Source: Candidatus Azambacteria bacterium (lineage in GTDB: Bacteria > Patescibacteriota > Minisyncoccia > GWC2-36-17 > WO2-46-25). Taken from it: a stretch of 55,976 nt of DNA. Below the pieces are notes generated by a model, which saw only the letters and a list, made by a program, of their open reading frames with translations, had not been told where the DNA came from and made no database searches. Below are positions 8,243 to 55,976 of this stretch, piece by piece (within the stretch, counting starts at the first letter, position 1; each line of letters opens with the position of its first letter). Location of the stretch: positions 1 through 55,976 of the forward strand of contig JACRAK010000029.1 in NCBI GenBank assembly GCA_016234725.1, read 5' to 3'. The position numbers and the translations under genes are program-made.

Positions 8243-8249
8243 ACAGTGT

Positions 8250-8318
8250 TGCCGGGCTTGGATTCGAACCAAGATTGATGGATTCAGAGTCCATATGCCT
8301 ACCGTTAGCAGACCCGGC
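8250..8318 (-). tRNA. tRNA-Gln(CTG)
   Basis: GCCGGGT...GCCCGGC acceptor; anticodon loop CTCTGAA; T arm CTTGG-TTCGAAT-CCAAG. Confidence 0.88.
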
Positions 8319-8327
8319 AGAAGATAG

Positions 8328-9047
8328 TTATTTATATGTACCGTATTTTCTAAATCGAATCAACTCCCGAAATGCATACACTTCTTTTTTTGCAGATAAT
8401 TGGATCTTAAAACCACTTCTATTCGGATGAAAACCAAGCATGCGAAGCCCCCTGTCTACATCACTTAACAATATCGGATTTTTGTTTGAAAACAACATTT
8501 TATATGTTCCCGTCGGCTTATGAACACAAAAACTCCCCTCCGCTTCATACAACCCGCGCAAACAGCGTATCAGCAATTTTTTATTTCGCCAAACCCACAA
8601 AGGAACACCGACCGTACTGTTTTTTCTGTTTCCCGTTGGAACGCCCAGTCGCCTGCTAATGTGTTTTTCATAAATACTAATGCGGATGCACTGTGCGGTT
8701 TTTACTTTCATGCATCGGGGCTCTTTTTTAAAAATTTTTCTCACGATCATGGTATATCGCAAAACGAACCCTGTATTATTGGCATTCGCCGCGATAATAA
8801 GACGCTCCGTTCTGGGAAACGCTTGAATATGCCCGTCGCCGAGAACAACACCGATGAGCTCCGCTAAATAGCCTGTCTTTGGAAAGGAACCATACTTGCT
8901 TTTTATCTTCCCTCTCCTTCTCATTTCTTTCCGCCATTTTGAAAAATTATCAATGTGCTTCGCGCGCATTGTTTCCGAGATTTTTTTGACAGATGGATGA
9001 GTATCTTTCGTAAACCCTCTGCTCCACCCCTTTTTTGCATTATCCAT
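8328..9047 (-). CDS. LAGLIDADG-like homing endonuclease
   Basis: YLAELIGVVLGDGHI and CLRGLYEAEGSFC, two LAGLIDADG-type motifs. Confidence 0.85.
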   Translation of the reverse strand: MDNAKKGWSRGFTKDTHPSVKKISETMRAKHIDNFSKWRKEMRRRGKIKSKYGSFPKTGYLAELIGVVLGDGHIQAFPRTERLIIAANANNTGFVLRYTMIVRKIFKKEPRCMKVKTAQCIRISIYEKHISRRLGVPTGNRKNSTVGVPLWVWRNKKLLIRCLRGLYEAEGSFCVHKPTGTYKMLFSNKNPILLSDVDRGLRMLGFHPNRSGFKIQLSAKKEVYAFRELIRFRKYGTYK

Positions 9048-9112
9048 GCTTCCAGCATAGCATACATGCAAAAATTTTCCTACCATTAGACGATAATGCG
9101 GTCAAAAAATAA

Positions 9113-22777: not shown

Positions 22778-22901
22778 ACCCGCCTAAATTTTTGCACTCA
22801 TGTGCACGATGCTGGCCACATATCTGCTCTGGTTCTAGTATTGCAACCGTATAAAACCGTTTGTTTAAAGAGCTACTTTTAGTGCAAAAACTTAGGCGGG
22901 T
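22778..22901. repeat. palindromic element F4a
   Basis: ACCCGCCTAAATTTTTGCACT ... AGTGCAAAAACTTAGGCGGGT, 20/21 match. Confidence 0.9.
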
Positions 22902-23129: not shown

Positions 23130-23617
23130 ACGGGCATTCGGAGCAAACCGGTGAAGATGTACGTAAGCCGGATTCTGTTCCGCCAGCCGGAAAACCGGCC
23201 GGTCGGCGACGATCATTTCTCTTGTCACCGCATTACTGCGGTGATCATGCGACTACCTGCTTTCAAGGAAAGCATATTGTCTTGCACCCGACAAGGATTT
23301 GGCCGTTTCACCCCCGGTGTTGCCATCGGGGCTCGCCCTTGCTCGCTTGCGCGAGAAGGGCGCCTTCCGTCTTTCGTTGGAAAGCGTCTCTGTTCGCACC
23401 TCTAAGGTCGCCCTCGACGGCCGTTAGCCGCTGCCGTTGCCCGCCCAAATTTTTTATCTCTTGACTTTTTGTCGCGCATGCGCAAACGGCGTTTTTCGCG
23501 TTCGCAAAAAATAAAAAATTTGGGCGGGCGGGTGTCCGGACTTTCCTCTCCCCCGCGTTACCGCGTGAGAGCGATCGTCTGTGCATCTTAGCATCCCGGT
23601 TTGCTCCGGATGCCCGT
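23130..23617 (-). ncRNA. rnpB: RNase P RNA (bacterial type A-like), with an inserted palindrome
   Basis: Minus strand GAGGAAAGTCCGGAC near 5', GGTGAAACGGCCAAAT mid, GAACAGAATCCGGCTTACGTACATCTTCACC at 3'; ends close in a long P1-like stem. Confidence 0.93.
23439..23529. repeat. palindromic element F4b inside rnpB
   Basis: GCCCGCCCAAATTTTTTAT ... ATAAAAAATTTGGGCGGGC, perfect 19-bp IR, 91 bp total. Confidence 0.9.
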
Positions 23618-55206: not shown

Positions 55207-55294
55207 TTAACTTGTACCGTGAAACATGAAACTTGAAACTTATTATTTATCGTTTCTATGATTCAAGATTCATGCTTTACGATTCATGAATTAT
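55207..55294. repeat. heptad inverted repeat array H11
   Basis: TTAACTT GTACCGT GAAACAT GAAACTT GAAACTT ATTATTT ATCGTTT CTATGAT TCAAGAT TCATGCT TTACGAT TCATGAA. Confidence 0.92.
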
Positions 55295-55481
55295 GCCACG
55301 ATCATGTACTGTGTGCGGAAAGACATCTGCATTGTCCACCGTCATCAGAAAATTAAGAGGGAAATTCAACCCGACCACAAAGAAGCGAAAATACCCAAAC
55401 CTCCAGTGGGCGGTCATTGACAGCGCCCGCGTTCGCGCATGCACGCAATGCATCCGAACCGCGAACAAAGCAAGTAAATAA
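55293..55481 (+). CDS. rpmB: 50S ribosomal protein L28
   Basis: MPRSCTVCGKTSALSTVIRKLRGKFNPTTKKRKYPNLQWAVIDSARVRACTQCIRT. Confidence 0.85.
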   Translation: MPRSCTVCGKTSALSTVIRKLRGKFNPTTKKRKYPNLQWAVIDSARVRACTQCIRTANKASK

Positions 55482-55492
55482 CATTCGTTTCA

Positions 55493-55527
55493 AAAACCCC
55501 GCCCTCTGGGCGGGGTTTTTGTTTTTT
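55493..55527. terminator. intrinsic terminator after rpmB
   Basis: AAAAACCCCGCCCTCTGGGCGGGGTTTTTGTTTTTT. Confidence 0.9.
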
Positions 55528-55538
55528 ACGGCTTATAC

Positions 55539-55544
55539 TATAAT
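55539..55544 (+). promoter_or_regulatory. candidate -10 box (TATAAT) upstream of the tRNA-Pro locus
   Basis: CTTATACTATAATGAAACACGCACGGG; no convincing -35. Confidence 0.4.
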
Positions 55545-55689
55545 GAAACACGCACGGGCTGTAGTACCTGCCCGCCATAAGCCTAACACGTGGTCGCCAC
55601 GGTATTCGCCGGAATATATTACTCTGTACTCCTGTGTATTTCTCTGACAGGCGATTGGCAGGCGGGCAATGGCAGTACGCATGCACTTG

Positions 55690-55799
55690 CCCGCCCAAGT
55701 TTTTCATCGGGCCATCGTATAGTGGTAGTACGCAAGGCTGGGGGTCTTGTAGTCTGGGTTCGATTCCCAGTGGCCCGAAAGATAAAAACTTAGGCGGGT
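55690..55799. repeat. palindromic element F4c carrying a complete tRNA
   Basis: GCCCGCCCAAGTTTTTCATC ... GATAAAAACTTAGGCGGGT. Confidence 0.88.
55708..55778 (+). tRNA. tRNA-Pro(GGG)
   Basis: CGGGCCATCGTATAGTGGTAGTACGCAAGGCTGGGGGTCTTGTAGTCTGGGTTCGATTCCCAGTGGCCCGA. Confidence 0.93.
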
Positions 55800-55976
55800 G
55801 AAGGGTGCATGTAGTCCGAGTTCGATTCTCGGCATCCCGACCATTCAAGACAAGTCAAATTTTCGGAAGAGGTTGCCTCGGGGCTTCGCCCCTCGGCATC
55901 TCCGCGTCCCGCAAGGCGGGACGCGGTAAATCGCCACGGTTCGAAAAAATCCATTCGGACTTTCCGGTTGAGGAGA

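Follow-up and report, generated by a model that had tools for sequence, protein, structure and literature searches.

Group I introns interrupt the anticodon loops of bacterial tRNA genes, and MITEs and palindromic repeats, such as REP and the Rickettsia palindromic elements, are short, non-coding and hairpin-ended. Other elements also use tRNA genes: phages, ICEs and plasmids of the SSV and pNOB8 types integrate into them and restore them (PMC3293823), and in Caldiarchaeum a tRNA gene has been disrupted in connection with a mobile element, a fragment of the same isotype being left behind (PMC3293823). In a full-text literature search of limited coverage we found no description of nested tRNA genes, the archaeal disruption model being the nearest (PMC3293823). 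Here we describe such a nest at the end of a 55,976-nucleotide stretch of DNA from a Candidatus Azambacteria bacterium (hereafter the window; the genome is denoted G000), together with similar nests in the remainder of this genome and in its relatives.

A tRNA-Pro(GGG) gene within an interrupted tRNA-Pro gene

The outer gene, a tRNA of Pro type, spans 55555–55843 at the end of the window, directly 3′ of rpmB (ribosomal protein L28; ORF at 55293–55481, plus strand). rpmB is present in 104 of 117 related genomes and is a conserved upstream neighbour of tRNA-Pro(GGG), which was located just 3′ of it in at least 12 of the 30 loci that we read. The sequence and a hairpin scan place a terminator hairpin followed by a T run after rpmB (55491–55521, plus strand), and a TATAAT sequence on the same strand (55539–55544), 10 bases 5′ of the outer tRNA, is a possible −10 box. 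A promoter scan did not find a full σ70 consensus; it is possible that the box would drive the whole nest.

Two insertions interrupt the outer tRNA-Pro, a 100-bp palindromic element in the D loop and a 117-bp tRNA-bearing unit in the anticodon loop. The 5′ part of the gene (55555–55567, CGGGCTGTAGTAC) comprises the acceptor strand CGGGCTG and the start of the D arm, and is followed by the palindromic element (55568–55667), which has the ends CTGCCCGCCATAAGCC...GGCAGGCGGGC, contains no tRNA and is represented by a second copy with the same ends at G000:C21:13118-13220. The middle part (55668–55685) provides the remaining D arm and the 5′ strand of the anticodon arm, and beyond the tRNA-bearing unit the 3′ part (55803–55843) provides the end of the anticodon loop, the 3′ strand of the anticodon stem, the T arm, the acceptor and an encoded CCA, all of these parts being on the plus strand. 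With both inserts removed, ARAGORN calls the joined parts as a tRNA-Pro. When only the anticodon-loop insert was removed and the D-loop insert was kept, ARAGORN found no outer tRNA, and in the unedited window ARAGORN and Rfam call only the inner tRNA-Pro(GGG) in this region. The acceptor stem of the outer gene has a single mismatch (C5 versus T68), leaving six of seven pairs, in comparison with seven of seven in the intact relatives that we compared. A preliminary description of this locus had recognized a Pro-type tRNA with an encoded CCA that is split in its anticodon loop by a palindromic unit, and this is borne out; it had overlooked the 5′ part at 55555–55567 and the D-loop insert.

The anticodon-loop unit (55686–55802, plus strand) has the ends CTTGCCCGCC...GGCGGGTGAA, which are also those of units in other genomes. 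Its left arm (55686–55707) and right arm (55779–55802) pair with each other in the predicted RNA fold. Between these inverted arms lies an intact tRNA-Pro(GGG) (55708–55778, plus strand), as the preliminary description had stated; it is detected by ARAGORN and scores like a normal tRNA (58.5 bits with the Rfam tRNA model). In a tRNA-model search of the genome it was the sole intact Pro(GGG) gene found. In the predicted fold (z = −3.4), the inner tRNA caps a long stem of which the outer anticodon arm forms part. In being short and non-coding, with terminal inverted repeats, the unit resembles a MITE; 71 of its 117 bp are tRNA, and an integrase gene is absent.

The anticodon of the outer gene was most likely GGG, not TGG, as judged by comparison with other nests and with plain genes. 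In other nests a resident sequence X-TG-Y becomes X-CTTGCC...GGNTGAA-Y (or the equivalent with CA and reverse-complement ends), and application of this joining rule to the window gives the stem CATGC, the loop ATGGGGT and the stem GCATG. We favour GGG because the rule restores ATGGGGT, a loop that is also present in the uninterrupted rpmB-linked tRNA-Pro(GGG) genes of G015, G089 and G101, because the uninterrupted rpmB-linked tRNA-Pro of relatives reads GGG, and because the restored anticodon usually equals the inner one in other nests. The earlier assignment of the outer gene to tRNA-Pro(TGG) is an understandable misreading, since ARAGORN too reads TGG when the halves are joined as CTTG+GGG. 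An intact tRNA-Pro(TGG) is located elsewhere in the genome (G000:C16:35103-35173). The last ~20 bases of this intact gene and its trailer are repeated ~110 bp downstream (L034, G000:C16:35103-35330), as if another element had used the 3′ end of tRNA-Pro(TGG).

Nested tRNA genes recur in related genomes

Nested arrangements were found for many tRNAs in at least 25–30 related genomes, the genomes surveyed being mostly metagenome assemblies. The units end in CTTGCC...GGNTGAA or its reverse complement, and these ends are conserved across families with unrelated arms. A strict pattern survey gave 41 matches in 33 of the 392 genomes of the class, as opposed to two with the reversed control pattern, and 34 of the 41, in 26 genomes, read as tRNA by eye; such surveys detect only units with conserved ends and therefore undercount. 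BLAST searches with the nest revealed nested Pro genes in many families among the relatives, and nests were also present outside the class, in G591 and G627 of the same phylum. Across 85,488 species a strict pattern had six matches, three without a tRNA and three with one inside (in a Patescibacteria group bacterium, a Candidatus Uhrbacteria and one further bacterium). A first pattern, TTCTTGCC...TGAAGG, was discarded because it was overly stringent, returning six Pro(TGG) nests from the 392 genomes, and a phylum-level pattern proved noisy.

In a flank-joining test, where most nests were counted on both strands, the outer tRNA was recovered for 39 of 127 tRNA-bearing candidates, in comparison with 113 of 2469 (4.6%) when right flanks were swapped. 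Swapping does not abolish recovery altogether, as halves taken from two real tRNAs can occasionally combine into a tRNA. Chance tRNA-like halves are ruled out by the recurrence of the nests together with this control. The inner tRNA lies on the strand of the outer one in 39 of 39 counts, representing about 21 nests, although either orientation is found when the units are read by their own ends. Identity was compared as well: with counts that are not fully independent (the multi-level L141 and L022 contribute more than one pairing, and certain genomes enter twice), the restored anticodon equals the inner one in 29 of the 37 units with a restorable 7-nt loop (1000 shuffles averaged 3.5 and never exceeded 9), and the outer isotype, assigned by nearest neighbour without the anticodon loop, matches the inner one in 28 of 30. 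Six of the eight anticodon misses are Ala units without two more loop bases, the outer tRNAs of which are nearest to Ala; the other two are L201 and L257. As for the isotype mismatches, the restored loop of L251 reads GAC, the same as its inner tRNA, and the right flank of L244 still has CTGATAA, an Ile(GAT) loop. A stem-loop test on the joints was weak, with 185 of 336 joints with other cores also giving a loop, so the argument rests on the anticodon match and not on the loop. Ala(CGC) units in five genomes (L141 (G095), L225, L228, L232 and L248) are without outer loop positions 34–35 besides the usual CA; the Ala(CGC) units of G000 and G133 keep these positions.

G000 itself (923 kb) has 45 tRNA-model matches, one of them an outer copy, and about 12 of its ~44 tRNA genes are nested alike. 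The other nests contain Pro(CGG), Ala(CGC), Ile(GAT), Val(GAC), Val(TAC), Val(CAC), Thr(TGT), Trp(CCA), Glu(CTC), Leu(CAG) and Phe(GAA), some nests and isotypes being read by eye where they were not re-joined by script. Neither tRNA-Lys(TTT) nor tRNA-Thr(GGT) was found in the whole-genome tRNA search, reflecting either assembly gaps or disrupted genes, and contig C9 has at its end a Lys-like fragment with the hairpin TCCGTCAGCTGACGGA in its D arm (L128). For tmRNA, the genome has two different predicted genes, at C30:60095 (L127) and C23:42746 (L126). In the window, an ORF at 8328–9086, which by eye has the look of a LAGLIDADG-type endonuclease, adjoins tRNA-Gln(CTG) at 8248–8319.

Palindromic relatives without a tRNA

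Relatives with the same arms that carry no tRNA sit between genes and have, by eye, apparent 4-base target duplications (TTGA, TCAA, TATG and similar). The tRNA nests have TG/CA plus an added CT/AA at their ends and no ordinary target duplication. In the window, the same arm sequence (CCCGCCCAAATTTTTTATC...GATAAAAAATTTGGGCGGG) recurs in a palindromic element at 23440–23531, which lies inside the RNase P RNA gene (23149–23590, minus strand) and is apparently tolerated there as an extra hairpin. A tRNA-free element of ~120 bp at 22779–22900, with CCCGCCTAAATTTTTGCAC / GTGCAAAAACTTAGGCGGG as its ends, is flanked on both sides by what looks like a TCAA repeat; further copies occur elsewhere in G000, two of them in tandem at G000:C27:9397-9641 (L129). 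Y1 transposases were considered as candidate mobilizing enzymes; their genes, scored for presence, were detected in 7 of 10 genomes tested, including G000, and were absent from the nested genomes G027 and G215.

Plain, nested and half-decayed states

The rpmB locus was seen in plain, nested and multi-nested states. An uninterrupted tRNA-Pro(GGG) lies 3′ of rpmB in G003, G015, G024, G026, G028, G077, G089, G091, G094, G101 and G111, and a nest occupies this position in G000, G027 and G043. The outer copy of the window shares 93% identity with the inner copy of G027 and 87% with the intact genes of G089 and G101, and the inner copy of the window is 96% identical to its closest match, an uninterrupted gene of a distant family (G074). 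G027 and the window thus have two Pro allele types in swapped positions at the same locus, the inner type of the window being the outer type of G027; on these sequence comparisons, the outer and inner Pro(GGG) genes are different alleles. Two- or three-level nests occur in G095 and G043, and in G095 three Ala tRNAs are nested within one another. A half-decayed nest is found in G026, where a right arm and the 3′ half of an older Pro tRNA lie after a tRNA-Pro(CGG).

Proposed replacement in place and alternative explanations

The outer gene of the window is best read as a resident tRNA that has been disrupted and contains its own same-anticodon replacement, rather than as a spliced gene, and we consider it likely that units of this kind disrupt a resident tRNA, supply the same tRNA behind its promoter and replace it in place. 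On this reading the outer gene would be the tRNA-Pro(GGG) that originally occupied the rpmB locus. A hairpin-ended non-coding unit, with a tRNA-Pro(GGG) of possibly horizontal origin as its cargo, would have been mobilized and have entered the resident anticodon loop at a TG dinucleotide. Such an insertion would break the resident gene and at the same time bring in an equivalent functional tRNA gene in the same orientation, where it would be transcribed from the resident promoter. The inner tRNA would now be the functional gene, and RNase P together with 3′ maturation probably releases it from a common transcript. A selective filter may operate at this step, with insertions into an essential tRNA gene persisting only when the cargo matches. 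The outer gene would then decay, here through the extra D-loop insertion and the acceptor mismatch; repeated rounds could give rise to multi-level nests, and once the outer halves are lost, the former position would be held by a replaced tRNA gene. The near identity of inner and outer genes in the Ala and Ile nests means that there the inner gene could have been duplicated internally instead of having come in from elsewhere.

It is also conceivable that no transposition took place and that local duplication, template switching at palindromes or gene conversion between tRNA copies made the nests, one gene being copied from the other. Matching isotype and strand would then be expected without a selective filter, and several features are consistent with such copying: the inner and outer genes of the Ala and Ile nests of G000 are nearly identical, the left half is tandemly duplicated at its Ala locus, and the arms vary between nests and genomes. 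We nevertheless regard local copying as unlikely, given that the inner and outer Pro(GGG) genes are clearly different alleles, swapped in G027, that the unit ends are conserved across families despite the unrelated arms, and that tRNA-free relatives with the same arms sit between genes with their apparent target duplications. Moreover, in G164 an identical tRNA-Gly(CCC) unit is found beside two different outer acceptor ends, evidence that rests on contig ends in both cases.

More doubtful is the idea that the nest works as one RNA, in which the outer halves are kept because they provide the inner tRNA with a promoter, a leader or a scaffold that protects it and can be processed. Decay is not universal, most outer copies retaining well-paired stems; the inner tRNAs share the strand of the outer ones, and the predicted fold, in which the inner tRNA tips a long stem with the outer anticodon arm, would suit a scaffold. 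However, inspection of the outer copies of G000 by eye shows that the Trp copy is truncated, that the Val(CAC) copy has been hit again in its T loop and that the Phe copy is base-substituted in the anticodon arm. The outer copies of Thr, Leu and the Pro of the window have likewise been hit again, and relatives carry the uninterrupted gene at this position.

The proposal of the preliminary description that the insert is spliced, as an intron, out of an otherwise functional outer tRNA appears very improbable. Both halves, the acceptor, the T arm and the CCA are indeed present, and ARAGORN reads a tRNA on either join, but the outer gene carries a second insertion and an acceptor mismatch, and its restored anticodon equals that of the inner tRNA. 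Two inserts in a single gene and variable insertion sites (D loop, anticodon loop and anticodon stem) are difficult to reconcile with splicing, as is a joining rule that requires the added CT/AA to be removed too if the loop is to be restored. The preliminary description had itself noted that an intact tRNA-Pro(TGG) elsewhere, together with outer halves that are neither conserved nor expressed, would indicate a degraded tRNA with an insertion; the first of these was found, at C16:35103. In agreement with its view that no group I intron lies between the halves, an Rfam scan of the window at the gathering cut-off gave no group I or II intron family and no ribozyme core, and by eye a bulge-helix-bulge was not seen in the predicted fold, which has a single long arm helix instead. 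Finally, an assembly artefact, in which palindromes produced chimeric joins between tRNA genes, is scarcely credible, since, although multi-contig metagenome assemblies predominate, the layout recurs independently in many assemblies, including the single-contig genome G020, with the strand always matched, the anticodon mostly matched and the unit ends conserved.

Relation to known systems

The recurrent ‘Russian doll’ nests point to a route, apparently undescribed, by which essential tRNA genes are exchanged in place. We lean towards the view that they represent a new class of mobile unit, in which non-coding, hairpin-ended cassettes carrying a whole tRNA enter the D or anticodon loops of tRNA genes with the same anticodon, persist by providing the very tRNA that they destroy and repeatedly replace essential tRNAs across Patescibacteria. 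If this is true, an essential single-copy gene would be replaced without ever losing function. Nests would also be a source of tRNA allele turnover overlooked by standard annotation, which misses them because tRNA finders report only the inner gene. Replacement in place would make testable the tolerance of essential RNA genes in streamlined genomes to insertion, the enzyme that recognizes TG/CA in tRNA loops and the release of a tRNA from inside another.

The units resemble MITEs in their size and ends, and tRNA-free versions with similar arms occur between genes and inside the RNase P RNA gene; unlike MITEs, the nests have a tRNA as cargo and a matching anticodon, and no constant target duplication was seen in them. 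Like group I introns they interrupt anticodon loops, but they have no ribozyme match, and the interrupted gene would be replaced, not rejoined. With the tRNA-integrating phages, ICEs and plasmids they share entry into a tRNA gene, and they supply the same anticodon, which may keep the tRNA working. Those elements carry an integrase gene and only a tRNA end, with direct repeats, whereas here a whole tRNA is contained in about 117 bp, is nested in a loop and is accompanied by no coding capacity. The Caldiarchaeum case, similarly, is archaeal and involves a 1.8-kb element with a recombinase and spliceable introns, whereas the nests described here are bacterial and non-coding, with a whole tRNA inside.
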